Source: Ianthella basta
Taxonomy: Eukaryota; Porifera; Demospongiae; Verongiida; Ianthellidae
Direction of reading: 5' to 3'
Assembly: GCA_964019415.1 (NCBI GenBank)
Contig: OZ025879.1
Location: forward strand, 2,416,310-2,480,309
DNA length: 64,000 nt
The notes under the pieces are model-generated. The model was not told the origin of the DNA. It worked only from the letters and a program-made list of their open reading frames with translations, and made no database searches. Shown in pieces: positions 46,650-63,774 of the stretch. Each line of letters starts with the position of its first letter. Positions within the stretch are counted from its first letter, which is position 1. The position numbers and the translations under genes are program-made.

Positions 46650-47257
46650 TCATTTCTTGTAAGTTATCAGATACTCGGGATATGAGTGATCATTATCATA
46701 TGTGATATACACAGTGGACCCATTGGTCTCTCCATTGACACTGTCGTACCTCCGCCGCACTTCACCCTGCCACTGCCCAGTGCCCTCACGCTCCGGTGGG
46801 ACTTGAAACTTGAAAGGAGGACTGCGGTGGCTTGCTCCTGTCAGCACTCGTGCTACCAACATCTGATGATACCCGTCCCTTGTCTTGTGGCTGTAGTCAA
46901 CTGAATAAGCTGATTTGACGGCAAAGTAGTTCCCTCTGCCCCACATCCCATCTCCACTGTAGCGCATGTCAAAACCTGAGTCGCCTTCATATAACTCCAC
47001 AGGCTTTGTGTCTCTTGTTCCATGATACAGCATCTTCTCCCCACTGTTCTGCAGTGTGGGATCATTCTCCAGGGCAGTCTTCTTGCTTATGTACTTCCTC
47101 CACAGAAGTTTATTCTGAATACGTTGGATGTGATGGACTTGTGCTGCAGGGAGGGACTTTAGGAAGTGGGTCTTTCTCCTGGTAAACTCTCTACTCACAG
47201 GGTCCACCATGAAGACCTGACATTCTGAAATCTGTGTCTTCCAATCCTCTGGAAAGC
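46650..47257 (-). other. PARP catalytic-domain terminal exon
   Basis: The exon begins exactly at the PARP domain (FPEDWKTQ, then RIQNKLLWRKY). The H-Y-E triad is complete: His in LYHGTRD (near 47025), Tyr in GRGNYFAVKSAYS (near 46915) and Glu in YPEYLITY (near 46675). The last block resembles the tankyrase ending, so poly- rather than mono-ADP-ribosylation is possible. If it were a separate gene, its start would have to lie in the 2.3 kb up to 49551, where no convincing first exon is seen. Confidence 0.85.
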
Positions 47258-50200
47258 CTGCAGTACAGTGTGTCAGAAACCGTTAATACCTGATTGCACA
47301 TGCAAAACTAGGAGCTAACAACTATAGTTACACATATACATAATGACAGCACAGTACACATGTAACCAATGGTCAGTATGTAATGCAACGTGAGTGTAAA
47401 CTACAGTATACTCTATGCCAGGGTACACACATATTTACTTGCAGTCAGAACAAATTTGATGCCCATCATGCATTGCCCGGGAAACACTACATAGCAAACC
47501 TTCAGTATTTGGCCACATACAAGGGCTGTATACAATTAAGTTTAACTTCATTATCAGACAGCACAGTAGTGCTGTCTATATAGGGATGGTGGTGGTTGTT
47601 TGTATGCTGTACCGTAAAATTAATACTCTAAAAAATTGAAAATCTAAAAAAGTTCGCAAACTTCCAGCGATCTTGCCTTGACCTGCTCTAAAAATTTGAT
47701 ATATTGGTTGTCTCTAAAGTTTGGGAAAACATCTAATGTTATGTCGCTGTTAATTTTGCCTCCATGCTCGATGAACATGAATGCTTCTCCAATGCTGGGG
47801 TTCCACACCTCCTTGTAGACATGATATCCGCAAATAACACACGATACTGTTACAAAGAAAGCGCCAGCGGCAGCCATTTTCTGTACAAAGCCTTCCTGAA
47901 AATGGCGGCAGAGAACGCTCCAATTTTGCAAGAAGGCTCTAATTTTTGCAAGAGGACAGCAAAGAAGATGATATTGCCTCCTAAATTTCAAAGGTTAGAT
48001 TTGAAATGCAGATAAAGTTTACAAATTTTTAGAATATTTACGGTGGCTCATGAAAGAGAAGCGCGCACATGTACACACTTTCCCCAAGGATGCATTTACT
48101 CCTGGGAAATGAGTCAACACACAATTGGCGCCAATACACCGCATCCATTGTTCACCGCTTTGCTTCTGTTGTGGGCTGAGCCAAGCTTTCTAGCATGTGC
48201 AATCCAGCTGAGCCAAAGCAAAGCGCCAAAGCCTTCGTGATGTCTCCGCGTATTTGTGCGTCACTCGTTTTGTTGGGTACTGCGGCCACAGGTCTGCATG
48301 CGCACTGAATGTTCCTGGTCAGAGTGCGCAGGAACAGAAATCAGTGACACTGTTGCACAGCACTCAAAAGTACTACTGAGGCAGCGTGGAGAGGATACGA
48401 AGCGACTTTAGCCTTGTCCTATGGCGAGATTACCACCAGTTCCAATGCAGCTCCACAGCAAGACGCACTAAAATTCAAATTGGGGGCGATTCAATTTTTT
48501 TGATAAATCACTTACTACATGCCTTTGATGGTGTACAGCATATTTACTGCACTCGCCCTCGGGTCTCATGCAGTAAATGCCCTACGCCATTGAATGCGTG
48601 TAGTAACTACTACTTATGTCCCAGCGAAGGTGCTCCTACATGTAGAGAGCGCCCTCAACATTTCCCACGTTTTGTCTTCTTCTTCTTGTTCTTCTCTGAC
48701 AGCAGTAGTGCACGAACCAAAGAGTCCATCAAAACACTTCTAACACCATATTGCACCACAGTTTGCTGGCTGTATTCCTTTGTAGGTTAGAAGGCGGCGC
48801 AGCGTAGTGCAGAAAACGACACTTTCCAAGATTCCCATCGTCGTCATGCTGGCCAAGTAGCCTTGCATAGCTAGTCCCTATTTCATCACCCCCACTGATG
48901 AAATAGGGACTGGCTAAACAAGGACTGGCTAAACAAGGTTACTGGTCAAGGGGGGTGACGCCATTTTTGAATGATGTAATACAACTGGATGAAACCAAAG
49001 TAACTTGTGCCATTGTGAGCAGCTGCAGCAGTTAGCTTGTGTGCCGTCTGAAGGACATTTGCGGTTGTGCATTTCCCTGCCATTTTAATCACTGCATGGT
49101 TGGCTTCCGGTCACTGTTTTCTCGCTGGGTTAGCGCGGAACACCTAGGTGCTAGAGCTCCAGGATCACAAAAATGAGGTAAATGCCTGCACCATGCAATG
49201 CTCTATGGCTGAGACTGAGTGTGTTGTTTCAGCTTAGCTGCCCGCTATAAAAAGTACAGAAACTAGAAACAATAAAATTTTTCTACAAAAATTTTAAGGA
49301 TGTATGGATGGCATAAATAGGACAGATACAAGTAAAGTCTGTTACACAGCGGAGCATTAACCATCATCCCTACATTCAAGGGTGTAGGACTATAAGGTGT
49401 GACATTCTTGCATGCAGGGACAATGGTTAATGCTTCACCGTTTAACAGCCTTTACTTGTTTCTGCTCTTCATATGCTATTCCTACATCATAGAAATTTCT
49501 TGATATTTCTTTAGTGTTACACTAGAACTCTAGTGAACACAACCTACGTACCTGTGTCTTTGTCAATATCTGGTACTGACTTGGGAATAGCAGCCAGCTC
49601 CAAGTTGCCACGGAACACATCCAATGATCTAATCTGGGTAAAGAAGTGCGTTGTGGCTGTGAGTGCAGTGTTGACTGTGGTGTTGGAGTGTGTGAGGCAG
49701 GGAGGGCCTTCACAGGGGTCGGGATGGCGGCAGCAGTCACGGTGTTCATTAATGGGACTCACATACTCCTCCAGACCTTTGGCCTCTGGAGGACACTTTG
49801 GGTGCTTCTGCAGTTGTTTGTAGAGCTCGACAATGTCACTGGAGCGCTGAAGGTCATGAGGCAAACCACAGTAGTGGAAGAAGATGGCTTTCAGGCTCTT
49901 CTCCAATGCCTCATGGCAGAAGAAGCAAATGGCATTGGGAAATTTGTACTGCACTGTGGGTGCTTCCCCTCCACTAAAGAAAACTGCTCCCTCTTTTGCC
50001 TCCTTCTTGGAAGCATGCAAGTGCGTAGCCAGCTCAAGGTCATTTTCTGCTTGAAAGACCCACATGGCAGCATCCATTCTGCTTGTGCTAGGTCTTTCCA
50101 GTTGGCCAGTCTCCATCGCATTGCTCCACACACTTTGGGAACCCTTTCGCTCTTTCTCCTTAGAACAAGTGCTCCACTCAAGATACAGGCCAGTGAGATG

Positions 50201-53200
50201 AGAGATATCCCAGTTACTCAATAGGTATAGAATTTTATCTTCCCTAAAGAGGGTGTTTTTGATGAAGGCCAATCCATCTCCTGTGGGATTAGCAGCTTGC
50301 AGGATGACACCAAACCTTCTAATGAGCTCTCCACACTTCTGCTTTCTCTCAGCTGGTTCATAACACACACAGCAGAGGTAGTGCAGGTGAAACAGTATTC
50401 TCTCAAGGGCAAAGCAGACTTGCTTCACGTTACAGATTCTCAGGGCAGAGTGAACTATCTGCTTCAGATCTTCACCAATACTACTTTCACGGACAGGACA
50501 ACACAGCACTTTTGGTGCCTCCTGCACTACACTGTCTGAGAGTACCATTCTAACTTCACTTTCTGTGGACTGCCTGCAAACCACTAAACTACTTTCCTGT
50601 GCTGTCTTCTCTGGGGATACCTTCAGCTGGAGCTGTGGGGGAAGCCCAGGTGTGACACCAACCACCCTAGCACAAACAAGAGTGCCATCAGGCTGACAAT
50701 ACTTGACAATGTCATTCATCTTGAAGTCAGAGAACAGCAGGAAGTCAGCATTGCTGCTTAGAGCTACTGAAATGCCAGGATGGAATGGGACGGACCCCAC
50801 ATAGCTGAGGAGACCATGGTCATCTAGAGCTTGCTCAAATTGAGATGGATGGCTGCAGTTCAACATGGCTGACAAGTGACTGGACTCCACTGATTGAGTG
50901 AGTGCCTTACTCAACTCCTCCACAAAGTAACTTAATAGTTCATTGCCTTTGATATCTTTTGAGTGGCATGCAATGAACAGCGTACCCTTGTGAAGCAGAC
51001 AACATTGCTTTTGTTCACTGCCATTAACAGTCTCGCCCCTGTAGCTTAGTGTGGTGATGACTTCATTAACACACAAGAAGCGGAGCTGTTGCACCTTTAG
51101 GATTGCATCCTCCTCCTCCTTCAGAGGCTTACGCTTGGCCTTATTGTGAATGATGCGGCACACACCCCTTGCAAACTCACTGGACCGGATAAGACTGGCT
51201 ATTGTGCCAATAATGATGCAGCCATGATCACGGCCCTGCTGCTTTGCAAACAACTCATACATGCACTGGTTGTTGTCATCTTCAATGTATGGGTCCAGCT
51301 CTATTGAGATTACATCAGAGAGGAACTTCACTCCCAAGCAGCGGGGAAGAGTCACTACTCCAGTCTGTGCTTCTGGTGGAGGCTGAGAGACGTACTTCAT
51401 AAGCCCCAATGGCAATCGTCTTTGGATCCATGGGGCATCACTAAACACCAGCTGATCGGATAAGGCGATACCACCTCCCAGTGCTGGCAAGGGAATGGGA
51501 AGTTGGATGTTCCTTTTAGCAGTTTCCTCATCTTCCCTCACAAGTGACACTAGAGCCTCATAAGCTATTATGCTCTTCTGTCTCAGCAAATCAAACTGTG
51601 AATTAGGCATCCTTGTCTGTGTTTCATGTAACGCCTGCAACACATGGATGTAGTGGGTGACATTGGGGTCTTGCTTTAAACCCAGTACTTTCAATAGGGA
51701 ACTGAACTGCTGAAGAGAGGCAGGGAGAATCTGAAGGTATGGTAAGAGGCAACGTTGCTGGCTGGGAAGGTGCTCCACCACTTCAGAACCCTTCACTAGC
51801 CAGTAGGTTTTGCTGTCTTGATTTTCAAGAAATACACACTTTGCTGTGAACAGTTTTCTCTTCACCAACTCCTCATGTTGGCTTAGTCTTGCACATAGAT
51901 ACTTGTAATGTGCAAAGAAGATGTCCTTCAACAGTTGGTACAGGCGAGTTACAGCAGTAGATTTTGCCACATAGTCACATAGCTGGAGGAGGTTGTCACA
52001 GACCAGGGCTACTGTGACATCCTGGATGCCCAGAGACGATGTGACATATTTGGGATTGGCAAATGCCTTTGTATGGAACCTTTTTGTGATGACTCTCGCC
52101 TGAAACCCAACTACCACTGATGTCTCACATTGCACATCATTGGTGCACAACACTGAACCTTCAAATGTGATCCTCCTTGGAAAGTCTCTCACTCTGGCTC
52201 CAACTGCTGACAACTCTTTTACCACTTGTGACAGCTGCCTTGGCATCTCTGCAGGAACAAATCCTAGCTTGGACACCTTGCTGAGGAATAGTTTCATTTC
52301 CTTGTCTTGTTGACCACCTACTGGTAACCCACAGGGAAAACGGGACACTTTTGAAACAAAGCTATCCAAAAGCACTTCAGCTGCATTGGCTGGGTAACGG
52401 TCTGGAGACTGACAGAACTCACTTGCACACTTCAGCCATAGCTCATTATCTGGTACTGTCTTTAAGCCAAGCTGCCTTAGCAAAGGCAGTTGGTCAGGTT
52501 TGTTCCAAGGTGCAGGTGGTTGGTAAGATGCAGTGAGGAAATAAGACACAAAGGATTCTGTGGGGTCAAAGAAATCTGAAACCTTCTTTATGTTTCCTCC
52601 ACTTCCAATAAAAGCCTTCTTACTGAGTGTACTCATCAGCATGTCATGCTCTGCCGGAGGCAAGGTGTTCTTGCAAGACTCACACACAAAGTGCATTTGC
52701 TTCACTCTAGTGTTTTCTGGCATTCGGTGAAGGCTGGGAATGACTACAGTTTGGTAGAAGTTTGCAACAGCTAGGACCTGTACACCGAGACTGTGAAAGA
52801 AGTTCAGAAACCTATCAGCATAGTCCTTTTTAGTTGTGATGAACAAAATTGACAGCTCTGACTGTAGAGTGTCCAAACCCTCCAAATTCACACCTGCAGG
52901 CAGAAGAAACACCTCCTTGGCCTTGTCAATGGGCCTCCAACTATTTATCCTGCATCCCATGGCACTGAAGATAGGAAGACACTTCAGTTTCTCTATTGTT
53001 TTAGTGTCTCTCCTCTTCAGCAGTTGGCCTTGGCTGATGAAGGCAATGAAATCTGCTATTTCTTCTGCTGTTATCAATAAATCTTGAGGAAATTGAGAGC
53101 AATAATTCAGCAGATCAAGAATGTTGTCTGGAGATGAGGACTGTGCCAAGATTCTGTCCACCACTGAGCGTGCTACTTTAAGTTCACTTTGTGTAAGGTT

Positions 53201-56200
53201 TACTTCTGTAAAGTCCACGATTGGAACTCCAAGCTTCTCTAAAACAACAAACTGACACTTACTCAGTGCAAAGTTGGCCATGTGCACAGGCAGCAATACC
53301 TTCTTGGGAGGGTGAGACATTACAGCAGGAATTACTGCCACATTGCTGAAGTGAGGCTTAAGCAAAGCTGCACCGTCATGACTGGAAACAACCCAACTCC
53401 ACAGATGTGACAAGGTGGGAATGTGGCTCTTGTCTAGCTCCACAGGCTTACCATCTTTAGGCAGTTGGATGTGTTGGGCTATATACTGTGGAGATACAGG
53501 AGCCACAACATGCGCCCCGAGGAGGTTGCTTGTAGAAATCGTTGGTGACAGAAAGTCTACCCACCTTTCCTTGGGTACAAGATGAATATCTTTGTCATTT
53601 GGTAGAAACTTTGCCCCACCAACCAGTGAGAGGCATCCGTCATAGGTCAGCATGATGGGTAGGCCTTTGATGTCATTGAGAGTCAATGAGGAAGAACTGT
53701 TAAACAGAAAGCTCCAAATGTGATGAATGTGGTTCTTTATGACTTCTTCAAAGTCCTTCATTCTAGGAGCAATGCCCATCAAAAACTTAATTACCAACTT
53801 CTGAGTGACAAGGATGGACTGGACATGAGAAGCATCTACACTTTCAAGCAGGTTGTACAACCTCTTTGGAGCATCTGTAATGTCGAGACCCAACTCCAGC
53901 AGCACTTGACAAATGTCACGATGAAAGCAGAAGTAGCCTTTGGGTTCTTTACCTCCATCCTTTAGTGCCAACCACTTTGGTTTAGCAGACAGGGACATGG
54001 CAGGAGCCTTGGGCATCAGAGGAAGAATTGCTGCCTTGTCAGCCAGTAGGTATCTGTAAGTCGTCTTCACTACATTGAATGCTGTAATGGATTTGGAGCT
54101 GGTGTGGTGAGAAACAGCTGGAGGCTGCTTGGGAAATAGCCTGTAAAACCACTCCAACTTAGCCCTACTGCTGATGGTCAGTGTGCAGCACTGGAGTAAA
54201 GTTGAGTAGCACTGTGCCAATATGCTCTCTGCTAGCCTCTGGTTCCACTCCTTCAGTGGGCCCTCCTGAGTGTGCTGTAAGTGCCTGCGGGAGGGATCCA
54301 CCCAGAAGTGGCCATTCACATGAACTGGCAAAAGAGAAGGGTTGTCATCAAGCGGAAGGTACACAAACACTTGTCCTTCTCCTTCCTCTAAGTTCCGGAT
54401 AGTAGAGGCAGCTACCCCTGCTACAGGAAGAAGGGATTCTTTGTGCCCATTGTGCAACAGATCCTCAGAGATCTCCTTGCTACCAAACTGTTTACTCACA
54501 ATCCAGTCATTGACATTCCTCCCACCTTCAGCTGTCTGAATATTCACTCCAAGAGTGTACACTGCTGCAAAGCTTTCAGAGAGTTTCTTTGTACTATTTG
54601 CATGTGTCACATGCTGTGCAAACAACTCTGGTGAGTGGAGGAACTTCTGTGAAATGGATGCACTGGCAGATGAAAAGTTTGAGATACGGTTTCCAACAGG
54701 AGATATTTCATAGACTGAGATCCGCCTGATATTGTTAAGGAATACCAGCATTTGAGGTGCTTCATCCATCAGCTGCTTGGACAAGGTCTGTAGCCTCTGT
54801 ATGGTCATTGCACATCCTCGCGTCAGTTTGGACTCCCATTTCATAGCAGGGTTGCAGCGTGTCAATGGGAGACGAAACATGGCATAGCCATTCTGCCACT
54901 GAGATGTTAGGTCTTGAAAGCATCCTGGCACTTTTGCAGCCATGTCAGGGATAACATCAGCTAAGAAGGGGCTCATCTGGTCAGTCATATTCTTCAGCTG
55001 CATAGCTGGTTTGGATCGCCACATTCTGCCAGGTGTGTCTTTCTTTGTCAGACACGATCTGTTTGGATCCAAAACGCAGAAACACTCAGGGTCTCCTCCT
55101 TTACCATAGGAGATAAAGGTTGGTGTGTCTGTTACATGGTAGGCCACATTGATACCAATACCAAACCTTCCAATCTTTTCTGCCTGACCACTCTTTCCTC
55201 CTACTCCCAACTTTGTGATTCCATAAAGATCACTCTCACTGAATCTGCGGTTGTTGAAAACCAACAATGATGGCATTTTTTGCAGCCATCTCCAGTTGTT
55301 CTGTTCAGTAAAAAGGAGTGAATCAGGGAAGTTAGCTCTGTGGTCAATCACAAAGGCAATTTCAGATGCTCCTGCATCCTCTGCATTCTGAACAAACTCT
55401 CGGAATATGGAGACATTGGGTTCATACTGATCAAGAATGCCATTTAATCGATCAGTCAGGTCCTCCCATTGCCCAAAGTCTTGGCCACTGAAGAAGTCAT
55501 CGCTCACCATCTGGCTGGTTGCATGATCAAGTAGGTCAGTGACTCCCAAAGCAGTGGCAGTAGCAAGAGGAATGTCCTTGTGCAGAAAGTAGGTCCATCT
55601 TCCTGCTACTTGAAGAGGGAGTTGAACGTCTTCTCTTGCACAAGCAAGCACCTCAGGAGAACGTAACACATACTGGTTGTCTGGTAAGAAGACAGGCTTC
55701 AGGCCGCCTTGATTTGAGTTAGCAACTGTGTTGGCTAGCACCACGATACAGCTCATCAGATTCTCATCAATCTTATTTTCCATGAACACTTGCTTCATTT
55801 CCCTTAGTTTAGCAGCACAGAATACAGCATTTAGACTTTCTGCAACTCCCAATATCTTAAACAGAGACCAGTGTTGTACATTGGGCTCAGCAAGAGCAAT
55901 GACAAATGGTGGGGCTGTAACATGGGTAGAGTGCACCAGCTGATTGGGGCACAGAAAACTGCCGTCTTGCCATATGAAAGGTCTCCTAAGTAGTTTCTTT
56001 TGAGCTTCTTCCACTATTCCTCTTTCACATCTTCCTGAAGTGAGAGCATGCTCAAGACATTTATACAAGGACGGCATCCAATTTGTCAGAAATTCCTTTT
56101 CCTTCTCAAATTGAGCACTTCTGTGCTCTCCACACTGCTTCCACCAGTCTGTGACAGACAACAGGTTCTGTAGCATGTCTGCTACTGTAGGGGATTGCTT

Positions 56201-59200
56201 GAAATATTGGGAGAAGAGGTGCAAAATGTAAGGAGAGCATTTGTTACCATCTACTACACCAGCCACAGTGAAGACACTTCCAAGACAGTTAGCGGCAAAC
56301 AGGTCACAAGGAGCTCCCATGGGATACTTGGTATGGTGCCAGGGAAAAGTGGTGCCCTCTGGACGACAATGAACTGGGAGGAATGGAACAATGGACAGTT
56401 CCCTGATTAGTTTATTTCTTTGCTCAGATCGCTGTGTTCCATGTGATGTCTTGAAGTGAAATTCAATATACTGCAAAAGGTACTGACTTCTATTGACCAT
56501 TTCCACAGCTGAGTGTTGAGCCAACACACATCTGGCACACTCAATGATATCACTGTCTCTGAGGTACACTGTTGCCATACCAAGCTTCACCAGAGCACTA
56601 TGGCTTGCTTCATTGTCACTCAACTCTTGAAGGGGGAACTTGTCCTCAATTCCTTTGAAGAGAGCAACAAAATGGCCATTTCTTGGATCAATAAGCTCAC
56701 TGGCCTTCTTCATTCGCTTTCCTGATTTGCAAGGGACACATGGCACTTTAATCAGCTGGTCTTGCAGCCACATGTGTTGTGGCTGCAATGCATCAAACAG
56801 TAACAGGATAGCTATCATTTGGTTGTTCCTAAGACCTTCGTCCAGTTTCTGTAGGTTGGGAAGCAGTACTTGGACACAGTATTCCTTGAGGGACACACAC
56901 CAAAGACCAGGAGAATTTACTTGCTTCTGTCTGAATGATTGTACTAGTTGATCGGGAAGAACAGACATGGAGTAACCCATCTGCAACAAGATTTGAACAG
57001 CATGGTCAAGGAAAGGATGCATGCCGGAGCCAAACGGCATATTCTTAAAGTCTTCTCCAAGCACATGCACATCTGACACAGACTCCCAACTGCCTTTGCC
57101 TTTGTAACATCTCACAACTTTGGAGTTTTCGTTGAGAACATACTCTCGAAATGAAGGGATCAGCTTTCCTGCAAGTTCGGCTGCTCCTGTCTGACCCACA
57201 GGCCAAATGCTGTAGTAAGTTGTAAGAAAGTTATCTGATGGAGAGGGAGAATGAGTGAAGTGCACGAGAAGATTAACGCAGGCCCTCACAACAGCATCTT
57301 CAATGAGGATGGTGTTCCAACTGTTTGCATCATGAAGTTCCTTAAGATTTCTGCGATCAGTGGAAATGTCAAAGCATCCATTGATGTGAAAACGCAGAGG
57401 AGCCACAGGAATGGAGAGGGGCAAGAAGCAGAACACTCTTCCTCGGTCACAGCAGACAGGGGCACCTTCTGCACTGACAGGCAGGGCAACTTCAGCAAAA
57501 GGGAACAGTCCATCTTTTGAGCCTTCTGGTGAGGATGCTTTGGCCTGGCTCTTCCCAGTGCCCAGAGCAGAGGAGACAACCCAGGCTGTCTTGATAGTTG
57601 GGTTCTCGGCGTAGCTGTTGACAGTGATGGTGCACTGTTGGATGCTTCTGTCCTGCCCTTTACCACCTTTGTATGATGCTAGGATGTTCACCCTTGGTGA
57701 AACCAAAGTCTTCTTCATTGACAAGATGGGTTGCATGCTTGATGGAAGTGCATCTTGGTGTAGTTCAAAGAGCTCCACACTTTGCACATTCTGAAGGAAC
57801 AATGGTATCAGTGGGGCAGTGGTCACCAATGACTGCACTAGATTGCCAATGTTCCCTCTGTGGTATTCAAGTCCTCGTCCAATTTCACTTCTACTTGAGG
57901 TGTACTGGTTTCGATACGGGAATCTGAATAGCGTACCCCTATACTCTTTTGCTTGGGGTTGTCTTAAGGAGAAGCCAAAGATGCCCTCAAAAGGCTGCAC
58001 TTGGTCTGTGTAGTAGTTCAGAAGAGTGTCTCTCTCCCGCACAAAGTCAAAATACACTCCCGGGTCACCATGTGATACAATGCCCTGAAGGTACCTACAG
58101 TGAGGGTCGAACATGACCATCTTGTTTCTGCTGACAAAGCTTGGTACATCTGTCAATTGATATGTGGCACAGAAACCAACACCAAATCGGCCAATTTTGG
58201 TTGGATCTTCCTTCTTCGTGGCGCCAGCAAGTTCACAAATATCATCAAAGTCCTTGTCAGTAAAGACACTGTTGTTGTAGGCATACAGTGCTGGGCCCTG
58301 CCAGTGTTTCATGTCTTCACTGAAGAGCTTGCCCGTGTGTGTAGGGTGCTGCCTCCAGTCCAGGAGGAACTTGACTTCAGTTGCACCTGCATCATCAGCA
58401 TTCTGAATCAGCTCCTTAAACACATCAATATTGTCCTTGTAGTCTTCAATGATTCGCCTCAGACGCCTTGTCAGAGGCTCATGCTGACCTTTCTGCTGAT
58501 ATGCAATCTTGAGGGCCTGAGGTTTCCCGATTTTGCTGGAGAGAGGAGAGACTCCTAGTGACCGAGCAAGATCAGACGATACTCCAGAGTGTACTAGAGG
58601 TCCATAGTCACTCAATCCCTTCTCATTCCATTGCCTGTCATCATATGCACACTCTAGTGGAGACAGAAATTGAGCATCTTTTGTTGGGAGGAGAATGGTG
58701 CCGATCAACTGATCCCTGTTGGGGCTGCTTGACAGCATGTGTACAATTTCGCTCAGACACCTTACAATATTGCCCATGTGTAATGTTAACAGCTCAGGCT
58801 TGCCCTCACATTGCCTCTTGATTGTGTACAATGCCTGAATGCAGTCACTAACACCAGATGATTCTCTTATTCCGCATCTAAGCCAAAAGTCTTTACCAAG
58901 ATACTGCAAGCCCATCTCTTTAATGGATGACTGCAGAGACAGTCCTGGAATAGGCTCATATGCCACCTCACTGGCTCTAAGAAAGCAACCCAAGTTGTGG
59001 TTCCAAATGAAAGGGAGGCTGCTCTTGTGTAGCACCTGACAACCTTGAGGGAGTGTATGGAAATACTTATACACTTGGACCATGATGTCCCATACTAGCT
59101 TCTTCCCTTCGTCACTCTTCCTGGCTCTGTCTTGCAATTGCACCAGGTTTTTAACATGACTCAAGACATCCTGTGGCTCAATGGCCTTGAAGGAAGCAGC

Positions 59201-62200
59201 CATGGCAGAGTAATTTGCCTTGATGGAAACAACTGGAAGTACAGACCCTACAATGGCAGCAGAGTCAATGCCCTCTTTTGAACTTGGCAAGCAAGCTTGG
59301 TCAGGGCAAATTGGTGTTGTACAGAAATCTGAACCTTTCCAGAAAAGACTGATAAGCTCATAATCCCGTGGAGGTTGGCTACAGAACAGGTATCGAATGT
59401 GCTTTGTTCTGTGCCAGACTTCCTCCATGTAGCTACTGACGTTAGCAAGGTAGCCTAGTCTGAGGAGGTGAAAGGAACGATCATGAGCCAGTTGGACATC
59501 TACCTCTGCTAGTTTTGCCACAGACTGCGCCCTTTCCACCATAAACCCAATAAACCTTTCCTTGTTGCTTGTTACAGCTGACCACTGTTGCAGACCTAGA
59601 AGCAGTAGCTTGGCCAGAATGGTGGGATGCCAGAAGTCAGAGTGAGGAAACACTGCTTCATTTGCTGTATAAAACGAATTCAACACTTCTAAATCTGAGG
59701 GATCAAACAGCTCACTTGGCATGTGCAAATTACAATCACCATTCACATTAGAAGGCAAAAATTTGGTTCTCAAGAGAACACAATGCAAATCTCTATCATC
59801 TTTGTCAAACTGGGAAAGCATCCAAACCAGCATGGCATTAACCTGTTGAATGTCAGCAGCCTGCTGAACCCACGGTAAGATGTGCTGGCGCACAATGGAA
59901 GCTAAAGAATCTGGCTGCCTCTGCAACAACTTAGACAGGTCCCGCACATTTTGATTGGTTGTTTTCAGGATGAGACCTGACAGGTGGCTGTCAGGAAGGA
60001 AGCTGAGGTGTGGTTGGGGGAAGATCAAAGAGCCTGAAGTGCCTGCATCCAGAGCCACAAAGACACATGGCTTCACTGTCTCATACAGAGGCAAAGACTT
60101 TAGGAAAGTGGTGTCTGCAGGTTTAAGAGTCCGATCAGCTAGAACCTTACACAGAAAGATGAATAGTTCTCGCTTCTCCTCTACTTCCACGGTCTTCAAC
60201 TTGCTACGAATGTCACCAGAACACCTCTGCAAGTATGCCAAGAAGTGTGCCGGTGTCACAAGAGGAAGGAAATGAGAAAGTGCTGAGGGGTGTGCCAAAT
60301 CATGGTGATGAAACTGGGAGTAGTTCTCTACTAGACAACAACCCAGCTTCTGTGTTACCTGATAAACACCCACACTGACTGTTTCCTGCCAGTTCACTCT
60401 CATGATGGACCCATCATTTACCAAGGGCAGTAGGTGAGTACCTTCCACAAAATCATCTCTGTCCAGCGAATGGGTTGGCACTAGAGGCAAACCGCACACA
60501 TCATTCAAGTTGATCTCAGGTTGCAGAAGCCACTGCCAAATGCTAGCTAAGTAGTGCCTTCCTGGCTGTCCGTTCACACCAGGTGTCCATTCTTTTGGGT
60601 TTCCTCTCTCAGCACCCCATGTAGCTAGGGACTGAGGCAGTAGAGAAGTGCACACTTGCTGTTTAGTGGGAATTCTCAACTGAGACTGCTGTGATTCGGC
60701 TATACTAGTAAACACATGACTGATCTCACTGGGGAGTGATCGGCACAACAGTCTGCTGCCAAGTCCTCTGAGAACACTGGCAGTGAGGTCATCTTCAATG
60801 ACATATATCTGATCTCGTTCCTTGTCATTTGCCTTCAAAATTGCAGGAGCATACTGTTGATCTTCCAGAGGAATTATTGGCAGATCAAACAAAGCTTCCG
60901 GTGGAAGGCTTGACAGAAGGTACTTTAGCAGCATGAGTAGCAGTTTGGGCTTTCGCTTCAATTGCTGTGCAGCCATTTCAGAGTGCTTGCACAGTACACT
61001 GTGCACCATCTGTGGAGTGAGGCACTGAGGGAGCCAGTCAGTCTGAATGGATTCCACAATGGTCTGAGGAAGGTACACTACGGGCATGCCTAGATCCAAA
61101 AGAAGAGAAGCAAGTGTGTGATCCTCCTTGGTCAGTGTGAATATGGCTTGCCTGCTGTCAACCCATGTTCCTCTTTGCAGAGGAGACCAGAAAACTGGGA
61201 GAGCTGCACTTATCAGCATCCTCAGGAGGGAGGAATCGGGAACAAGAAGAAACTGCCACACATACACGTTGCGGAGTTCTTTCAACAAGGGCCACATTGC
61301 ATAAGCTCCTGGGCACTCCACACTACCGGGACTAGCAACAAATCTGAATAGCATAGTGTTGATGACTATGGCTAAACCATATGTAGGAATCAGCAACTCT
61401 CTCACAAGCAAAAGATTCCACCAAGCCTCTCTGTCACTTTCTTTCTCGCCTACAGGCCACTTGATACGCTGTCTGTCATCTACTGGGATGAAGTAGCCAT
61501 GTACATTCACTGGCAGTCCAGTGGTTTGTGGGAGAGGGAGAAAGCAGAAGGCCACACAGTCAGTGGTCCTGCCTTCACATTCCTGGTCTGAGGACAGTGA
61601 ATGGACAGCGGTTGAGCTAAGATGGGCCTGCAGTTCTTGGACTGCCCTCCTTATAATGTCTCGTCCTTGAATTGCATTGAGTTTGCATCTCTTAAAGGAC
61701 ACTGGTTTAGGGAGTGGAACTGCGGTACCCACCCAAGGGGATACCCGAAGATCCTTTGCCAAATGTTTCAGCTGGATGTTCTCACTACCAAGAGTCTGAC
61801 AGATCATCCAGTGGTACTTTTGAGGACTCTGTGCTATAGCAGATCCTTCTACACACACAGTGCATGGGTAGATCACTGATACAGAGCAGCCGTGGTCTTC
61901 TGCAGAAGCCTCGTCCATGTCTCTTTGTGCCTTCCGCACTTCATCGTAATTTGAGACATCCAATGACACCTTACCAACCAACTCCAGCATTGGCTTGGCT
62001 TGTCTGCCATCATTCCTGCTGTAGATCTCAATGCAAGTGACGTGTCTGAGGAAGAGAAGAATACGGCTTGCCTCACTCTTGAGGCATGAGCAGAGCTCTT
62101 TCAGCACCTGAGGAGGAGAGAACTTCTTGTCAGAGATGGATGACTCCTTCGTACGAAAGGGAAAGCGAAACAGAGTTCCATTGTAATCTTCTTTACCGTG

Positions 62201-63774
62201 TGAGAAACCAAACAATCCATCGAAGGGCTTGAGGTGGTTGTAGCGTTGGTGCTGCAACTCATTAAGGGTGAACTTCAATCCCGTGCGTTGGCTCCCATCA
62301 TCATTTCTTTCATTGACGTAATGGGTGTGAGGATCCAGTATGCCCATGTACTCACCGCTTAGAATGACGGGCAAATCTGTGAGAAAGAAAGCAGCTAACC
62401 AGGGTAATGTCAACACTTAATGCTGTTGAATATGTTTAACTCTCTAGTGACTGCAACATGCCATGTCAAGTTTGATTGGCATCTATTGTAACAGACTGTT
62501 GCAAACTGACAGGAGAAATGTCTGTGCTGGCATTCGGGTTTAGAGCTTACAACTATGCTATTTTCTCTTCATATGACCAAGCAACCATCCTTCACATGTC
62601 CTGACGGTATGTAGTTTTACCATTCATCAACAGTACAGGGGACTGCATCACCCACTGCACCCCACTGTAACAGTAATAATATAAGTATTGTACTTGTGTA
62701 TTGGCGCAGGGGTGCAGGGCTGGCCGGACAATATTAAATGCACTTCTCTTGTTTCAACCCAATAAATGCTAATGCCGATTTTACACTATGCTGGTACAGT
62801 ACGATATGATAAGCTAGGTTCGGTACGATAATCCAAACCATTTACATGTAGCAACGAATGACAGGGACAGTACTATTAGTGTTGGGTGATCCGAATGGAA
62901 AGTAATAACTGACTAGCTCACTCTCGCTGTTTTGCTGCAGTTTGTAGGGCCTAGTCGTCTGTCGTCTAGCCTTTCAGAGCCCTGAAACATCTGTATGTAG
63001 TCCAGCGAAATTGGTCTATGAGAGCGCATGCACAGCACAAGTGGCATATGGTACCATATACACTACAGTTGCAGAAGCAGACCGAGATATTCCAAAATCA
63101 TATGGTTCAGTATGGTACGATATCTGTTTAAATTTGCCATTTTTTCTGTACCATACCGTACCAAACCAGACTGTTCCGGAATATTGCGCTAGTGTAAACG
63201 GGGTATAAGCACCATATTTAATTGTCTTGTGTCACACACATATACATGCTTTTATATTCAATGTACCTGTGAGGTGGTGAACAGACTGGAATCCAATTCC
63301 AAATCTCCCAACCTTCATCTTGTCCTCCATTTTCTTGCTCTGATAGAGTTTTCCAATGTTACTCCAGTCTCCCTCTTTGAAAGTGGCATCGTTCCATGCT
63401 AACAGAGCGGGACCTTGAACTGATTTGAGACTGTCCTTTACTAAGCCTTCAGTTGGGTAGCGCTGAGAGTCCACAACAAACCGGACCGTACTAGCACCAG
63501 CGTCATCTGCATTCTGCACTATTTCCTACGAACATGCAGAAAACAGCATGCGAAACACAGAAAAGGTAGTACCCAATACATAGGTAACACAATACAGTAT
63601 GTGAAACAGAAACGATGTGCTCAATACCTGATGTTGGTGATGCCAACATGTCTGTACCATGTAGTGTGTGGTATTGGCACTGCAGCTCACTCACTTTCAG
63701 GATCTGTCCTTCTGTGTACTTCCCAAGTAGGTTCTTAATAAATTCAGTCAATGGTGGCACCGTAGTGCCAAAAT
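46650..63774 (-). CDS. Sacsin-like giant protein with HEPN and C-terminal PARP domain (5' end outside)
   Basis: Exons: 46650-47257, 49552-62376, 63267-63525, 63695-63774; about 4,590 residues in window, all phases consistent; the first exon(s) lie beyond the right edge. Three HSP90-type ATPase repeats carry EIVQNADDAGAS with VGRFGIGFQSV (63267-63525), ELIQNADDAGATE with IGRFGVGFCA (~58425-58150) and EFVQNAEDAGASE with IGRFGIGINVAYHVTDTP (~55410-55120). A HEPN domain of sacsin type (WVFQAENDLELATHL, CFFCHEALEKSLKAIFF, INEHRD) is at ~50090-49730. No J domain is evident. The 12.8-kb exon ends at a strong GTACGTAG donor in phase 1, and the only phase-1 acceptor with a coherent exon downstream opens a PARP domain. 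Unspliced, a TAG follows at once. Sacsin is a co-chaperone-like protein. The fusion suggests ATP-driven remodelling coupled to ADP-ribosylation. Confidence 0.82.
47644..47991 (-). pseudogene. Small frame with GYHVYKEVWNPSIGE motif (repeat-derived)
   Basis: A 115-codon minus-strand frame inside the sacsin/PARP intron contains GYHVYKEVWNPSIGEAF. I associate this pattern with HIRAN-like repeat proteins abundant in sponge and cnidarian genomes. The expected downstream half is absent and replaced by unrelated sequence, so a decayed fragment is likelier than a gene. Confidence 0.4.
49329..49458. repeat. 130-bp hairpin element
   Basis: Arms CAAGTAAAGTCTGTTACACA... (49329-49364) and their imperfect complement (49423-49458) enclose a 58-base loop. 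Located in the intron between the giant exon and the PARP exon. Confidence 0.75.
62774..63203. mobile_element. Possible MITE in sacsin-like intron
   Basis: GCCGATTTTACACTATGC at 62774 and GCGCTAGTGTAAACGGGG at 63186-63203 are imperfect inverted ends. Several GGTACGATAT / ATACCGTACC motifs lie between them in both orientations. No coding capacity. Confidence 0.45.

Follow-up and report, generated by a model that had tools for sequence, protein, structure and literature searches.

The DNA analysed here, called the window, is a stretch of 64,000 nucleotides from the sponge Ianthella basta (assembly GCA_964019415.1, contig OZ025879.1). This 7.8-Mb contig is referred to as C12, so that the window corresponds to C12:2416310-2480309, and genome-wide searches covered 209 Mb in 96 contigs. 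The minus strand of the window carries a gene that very probably encodes a fusion of sacsin-type HSP90-like ATPase modules (SACS), a HEPN domain and a C-terminal PARP catalytic domain. Its features are listed below in window coordinates.

63695..63774, minus strand: 5' coding exon (FGTTVPPLTEFIKNLLGKYTEGQILK), acceptor TGTAG, donor GTGAGT
63267..63525, minus strand: exon 2 (259 bases), ATP-binding half of SACS module 1 (EIVQNADDAGA ... GRFGIGF); SACS match C12:2479574-2479837, 107.6 bits
49552..62376, minus strand: giant exon with the remainder of SACS module 1, modules 2 and 3, a long linker and HEPN; Pfam SACS 513.7 bits
61991..62389, minus strand: profile match to the second part of SACS module 1; C12:2478300-2478698, 95 bits
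57749..58483, minus strand: SACS module 2 (ELIQNADDAGA, GRFGVGF); C12:2474058-2474792, 256.6 bits
54698..55465, minus strand: SACS module 3 (EFVQNAEDAGA, GRFGIGI); C12:2471007-2471774, 179.3 bits
49712..49939, minus strand: HEPN core with the motif H-x4-R-[YFH]-P; Pfam HEPN at residues 4160-4235
47258..49551, minus strand: intron between the HEPN and PARP exons (GTACGTAG ... CTGCAG); phase 1, 2294 bases
48042..48616, minus strand: dispersed repeat of about 575 bp within this intron; 85-90% identity to copies elsewhere
46650..47257, minus strand: PARP catalytic-domain exon with H (YHGT), Y (GRGNYFA) and V (STVYITY); Pfam PARP 60.8 bits; stop 46650-46652

The giant exon lies in an open frame of 4290 codons (49544-62416, minus strand) in which SACS domains are followed by a C-terminal HEPN domain. 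Its last base is 49552, after which GTACGTAG brings an in-frame TAG, and the PARP exon opens in phase 1 at 47257, right after CTGCAG, and terminates at the TGA at 46650-46652. Both boundaries agree with the first-pass annotation, which had been made from the sequence alone and had also named the sacsin-like repeats, the HEPN and the PARP domain. All three were recovered with Pfam, SACS at 513.7 bits over three stretches of the giant exon, PARP at 60.8 bits, and HEPN at 29.2 bits with the C-terminal 176 residues scanned alone and 21 bits in the whole exon (cut-off 22). When the four located exons were joined, a single open frame of 4589 residues was obtained, in which the sole stop is the final codon. 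SACS module 1 is divided between exon 2 and the first part of the giant exon, and the motifs E..QNA[DE]DAGA and GRFG[IV]G are kept in exon 2 and in modules 2 and 3. A stretch similar to exon 63695..63774 was found by tblastx upstream of two other copies of the gene (A26 and D40), and the exon lies within a stretch shared with a third (B34). From its start phase, at least one more exon must lie upstream, and the 5' exon that carries the start codon was not located. The Pfam scan, which on this point covered the giant exon but not the first exon(s) of the gene, detected no ubiquitin-like domain of the kind found at the N-terminus of vertebrate sacsins; macro and WWE domains were likewise absent from the window protein. 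Strong matches to the sacsin modules (49547-62416) also came from the TmtA models in PADLOC, which describe candidate defence proteins of prokaryotes, and from NCBIfam P_loop_sacsin.

The gene belongs to a family. The SACS profile gave 72 matches in the whole genome, every one on C12, and we grouped them into 16 genes, to which all family counts below refer:

Cluster A, 1.16-1.37 Mb: 8 copies, three SACS modules each
Cluster B, 2.46-2.53 Mb: 3 copies including the window gene, three SACS modules each
Cluster C, 2.55-2.64 Mb: 4 copies, four SACS modules
D (D40), 3.27-3.30 Mb (C12:3266860-3298856): 1 copy, one open frame of 8367 codons, about seven SACS modules including the 5' exon

The PARP profile gave 65 matches in the genome, 18 of them on C12. 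Sixteen of these 18 adjoin the 16 sacsin genes, directly downstream and on the same strand, and the other two lie at 4.47 Mb. Pfam PARP was matched in all 16 copies, and so was Pfam HEPN at E<=1 (best 8.3e-12). According to the first-pass annotation, known sacsins end with J and HEPN domains; the HEPN part holds throughout the family, but no DnaJ match was found in the window giant exon or in the sacsin arrays. The 26 DnaJ matches in the genome lie elsewhere, with about 107 kb between cluster C and the closest one on C12, and SACS and DnaJ searches did not find a canonical J-domain sacsin in this genome. The PARP domain therefore follows sacsin without the usual J-HEPN end.

The junction between HEPN and PARP was compared across the family. 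A phase-1 donor could be placed 56-64 residues past the HEPN RxP motif in every copy, and a phase-1 AG acceptor stands immediately before the PARP start ([FLI]PxxW, "PxxW") in every copy. The gap between HEPN and PARP measures 208-2294 bases and falls within 208-493 bases in nine copies (shortest 208, 234, 336 and 338). The first-pass annotation had derived the fusion from splice phase in the window gene. Its phase-1 donor and acceptor were read again there, and the fusion is strengthened because the same phase-1 junction is readable in 15 paralogues and because nine of the 16 introns are short, although the paralogues are relatives of one another and not independent cases. In six of the eight pairs of introns compared, the gap runs mostly had lengths that are not multiples of three (3/3, 4/6, 2/2, 3/3, 6/8, 7/10), and the gap therefore looks non-coding there. 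A stop codon follows the donor after 2-152 bases in all copies, so that an unspliced transcript would end soon after HEPN and lack PARP. From this comparison, sacsin modules, HEPN and PARP are with high probability encoded as one fused protein.

A separate start exon for PARP within 47258-49551, raised as a possibility in the first-pass annotation, is not indicated. In ten of the 16 copies, among them the window gene and every B, C and D copy, the open frame leading into the PARP acceptor contains no ATG. Only the two ends of the window intron and one short internal piece have counterparts in the sister genes B34 and B35, whose introns measure 336 and 338 bases, and the middle of the window intron holds the dispersed repeat; a start exon hidden there would thus be peculiar to the window copy. 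Forty further copies of the repeat were scored among 1381 candidates on many contigs, and inverted matches occur near one end. The repeat looks like an element of the miniature inverted-repeat transposable element type inside the fusion intron, and the 2294 bases of the window intron look like a sister-type intron of about 336 bases plus inserted sequence that includes the repeat.

The PARP exon is under purifying selection. The ratio of nonsynonymous to synonymous substitution (dN/dS), calculated with a Nei-Gojobori script for 22 within-clade pairs, was 0.09-0.56 for the PARP exon and below 1 in every pair, and 0.21-0.43 for the preceding coding stretch (up to 400 codons), again in all 22. 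The PARP tree was built from the 16 family PARPs and seven other genomic PARPs, a sample that leaves out most other PARPs of the genome: among 20 other PARP loci examined, eight gave long matches (seven used; L055, 23.7 bits, omitted), 11 gave short or weak ones and L058 gave none. In this tree a branch (99/97) separates the 16 family PARPs from the seven others. Clades A1, A2, B and C are common to the PARP tree and the HEPN-side tree, in which A2 falls under the star threshold (93/99), and D40 is a long branch of unsure placement. These topologies fit a single fusion that predated the expansion of the family.

Some irregularities were also noted within the arrays. In B35 (C12:2514381-2530000) the SACS matches fall in two giant frames of 1595 and 2751 codons, and in C37 (C12:2573426-2593528) in two of 1235 and 4088 codons; these split frames may reflect decay of the copies, an additional intron or a fault in the assembly. 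The PARP frame of B34 continues into a stretch resembling a HEPN tail (KIRSFELFSGDLEVATNPK...KDTG), followed by GTAAAG, which suggests unequal recombination between copies, and a second PARP behind that of B34 was not supported (score -1.1). Just past the window end lies a Death-like exon (C12:2483824-2484114; L041:3625-3915; Pfam E 0.03, under the cut-off), which was considered as the N-terminus of the window gene and rejected, since a stop codon closes it and the stretch shared with B34 does not include it. This exon belongs to a large family (730 first-look candidates in the genome, 150 scored) and is probably the terminal exon of an adjacent gene.

Searches of solved structures with the window PARP placed PARP15 first (E 3.7e-21), with PARP14 and then PARP12 behind it; in a profile search the order of these two was PARP12, then PARP14. 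The intact H-Y-E triad reported in the first-pass annotation, and with it a poly-ADP-ribosyltransferase (poly-ART) type, is ruled out by the PARP15 alignment. The third residue of the window triad is the V of STVYITY, which faces the L of PARP15 (KLFVVFF), and the E of YPEYLITY that had been taken for it is also present in PARP15 and does not occupy the catalytic position. The PARP15 residues are presumably H559, Y591 and L659; counting along chain 3blj with an assumed offset was consistent with this numbering for H and L. Across the family, H is kept in 16 copies and Y in 15, and the third residue is I in nine and V in seven. In the available part of one review, PARP14 and PARP15 are H-Y-L, mono-ARTs are typically H-Y-hydrophobic and the inactive PARP13 is Y-Y-V (PMC9189837). 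Since 15 of the 16 copies carry H-Y-I/V, the pattern is that of a mono-ART and not of a poly-ART, and the family PARP is by this pattern a predicted PARP14/15-type mono-ART. Among the PARPs fetched from the genome, its nearest relatives are seven on contig C5. Two C5 frames were scanned, of which one contains macro and WWE domains (PARP14-like) and the other RRM domains. Clusters of PARP genes lie at C5:5.70-5.78 Mb and C5:8.50 Mb.

The HEPN domain shares an invariant motif, H-x4-R-x-P, across the family. Compared with solved structures, its profile found prokaryotic structures first (1o3u, E 1.3e-4) and human sacsin (3o10) only at E 0.2. A literal Rx4-6H overlapping the RxP motif is present in five of the 16 copies (RDCCRH in the window; RCRYPEH in A26, A28, A30 and A31). 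It is absent at this site in the other 11, so there is no family-wide RNase motif. RNase activity is therefore doubtful in most copies, and the motif does not decide the case of the window copy. Sacsin HEPNs are described, in the portion of PMC3710099 at hand, as RNases or non-catalytic RNA binders depending on the lineage.

Taken together, the proteins of this family comprise three to seven sacsin HSP90-like ATPase modules, HEPN and a C-terminal PARP14/15-like predicted mono-ART. We propose that the ATPase modules and the linker form a large switch that senses clients or ligands, acting as an ATP-dependent sensor or holder. HEPN would bind nucleotide or RNA, or aid assembly, and in most copies is probably no classical Rx4-6H RNase. 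The switch would then bring the mono-ART to bound clients, or unmask it on them, and the clients would be marked with single ADP-ribose units in a stress or immune response. The choice of splicing or polyadenylation could turn the enzyme on or off through a sacsin-HEPN form that lacks PARP. The whole account, a fused family of 16 genes with a sacsin switch and a C-terminal mono-ART serving stress or immune responses, appears to us about evenly balanced between right and wrong. A role in conflict or stress response would fit the tandem expansion, the PARP14/15 affinity and the published sacsin-Death fusions of a sponge. More tentatively, the sacsin genes detected here could be tandemly diversified NAD-dependent intracellular receptors, whose HSP90-like repeats would sense a threat or a damaged client and switch on the mono-ART; such proteins would follow an NLR-like logic on a chaperone ATPase base, with non-splicing giving the PARP-less form.

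The mechanism of sacsin is poorly understood, and its loss causes ataxia in humans. If the fusion is true, a chaperone-like machine could mark other molecules directly using NAD. Every sacsin gene detected here has a PARP after HEPN, and ADP-ribose on targets would be a readout of what the sacsin modules hold. This would allow a test of whether an output domain is gated by the ATPase repeats.

A different purpose for the same fused protein would be proteostasis instead of defence, with mono-ADP-ribosylation tagging misfolded clients on the sacsin modules in place of HSP70 recruitment by a J domain. In favour of this explanation, no J domain turned up beside the SACS genes here, while the coral sacsin-like protein and human sacsin have one, as far as the sections seen of PMC8626496 and PMC3710099 go. 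However, the copy number of 16 and the closeness to the PARP14/15 branch are more suggestive of a lineage-specific expansion of defence genes, and we consider a proteostasis device rather unlikely. It is also conceivable that the protein is fused and its PARP-type domain is a non-catalytic module, binding NAD or ADP-ribose or serving as a scaffold, as in PARP13. The V at the third triad position is shared with the inactive PARP13 (Y-Y-V in the excerpt of PMC9189837), C36 has lost the Y (H-S-V), a point that also weighs against the mono-ART prediction, and dN/dS of the PARP exon exceeds the upstream value in 3/3 B pairs and 5/6 C pairs. But H is kept in all copies and Y in all except C36, unlike in PARP9 and PARP13, and the dN/dS values are still below 1. 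A non-catalytic domain is thus unlikely.

Several observations weigh against the fused gene and its proposed function. The fusion is predicted from sequence comparison, and PARP and ATPase activity, targets and the stress or immune role are likewise predictions. The donors were picked by us from several candidates in each copy; that of clade C is weak (G|GTTAGC), and that of clade A1 (A|GTGAGC) has A at the last exon base. An in-frame ATG lies just upstream of the acceptor in six of the 16 copies. A hexamer resembling a polyA signal occurs in six of the 16 introns, including that of the window, and within 600 bases past the PARP stop in only eight copies, and these hexamers are not decisive as a test of one gene against two. 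In two of the eight intron pairs the gap runs are mostly multiples of three (non-multiples 3/7 and 2/5). The whole-exon HEPN score of the window lies under the Pfam cut-off, and the six-frame search of the genome yielded only nine HEPN matches. The 16 copies, being related, are not independent trials, and a paired duplication of two genes would yield the same matching trees. Two adjacent genes duplicated as a pair, a sacsin-HEPN gene ending at the post-donor stop and a separate PARP gene, would agree with that stop in every copy, the matching trees, the intronic hexamers and the six upstream ATGs, but are very improbable, because gaps of 208-493 bases in nine copies leave scant room for a 3' end, a promoter and a start exon, the phase-1 acceptor is present in all 16 copies with no in-frame ATG there in B, C and D, and the extra length of the window intron has no match in the sister copies and contains a dispersed repeat.

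One fused sacsin-HEPN-PARP protein thus being the preferred reading, it can be compared with known systems. No such fusion appears in titles or abstract openings of the open-licence literature, among the matches listed, and the architecture may already be present, without comment, among public protein predictions. Relatives were not confirmed in IMG/VR, searched with PARP and HEPN alignments, or in prokaryote genomes, searched with the PARP alignment. With prokaryotic TmtA-type proteins, a label taken from PADLOC on which no paper appears among the 6 literature matches listed of 8,342, the window protein shares the sacsin-like ATPase region (E 1.5e-118), whereas its PARP exon has no PADLOC match. 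Animal sacsins, such as human SACS and the coral sacsin-like protein, share the HSP90-like modules (three in clades A and B) and the C-terminal HEPN; the coral protein has HSP90-like, J and HEPN domains according to the section of PMC8626496 available. In the sponge genes, by contrast, a J domain was not found, PARP follows HEPN, and there are 16 copies, one with about seven modules. With PARP14 and PARP15 the window protein shares the catalytic domain from PxxW to the C-terminus and the H-Y-hydrophobic triad, but it has no macro or WWE domain, is joined to sacsin modules and HEPN, and belongs to a family with I or V, not L, as third residue. In the sponge Amphimedon, several sacsin-like proteins carry Death domains and were proposed to act in conflict or apoptosis (PMC3710099, in part); several sacsin-like proteins with an added module are common to both sponges, while no Death domain could be attached here. 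Among the papers listed, PMC8195603 alone deals with sacsin, HEPN and PARP together; it describes cnidarian TRADD-N proteins with HEPN, macro and PARP domains, as well as TRADD-N-sacsin fusions, and the portion available does not report a sacsin-HEPN-PARP fusion. The TRADD-N proteins, predicted to act in immunity, also combine HEPN with PARP in a single protein, but they carry TRADD-N and macro domains where the window protein carries sacsin modules. The sacsin-PARP genes of I. basta would add a chaperone-based architecture to the PARP-containing stress and immunity proteins of animals.

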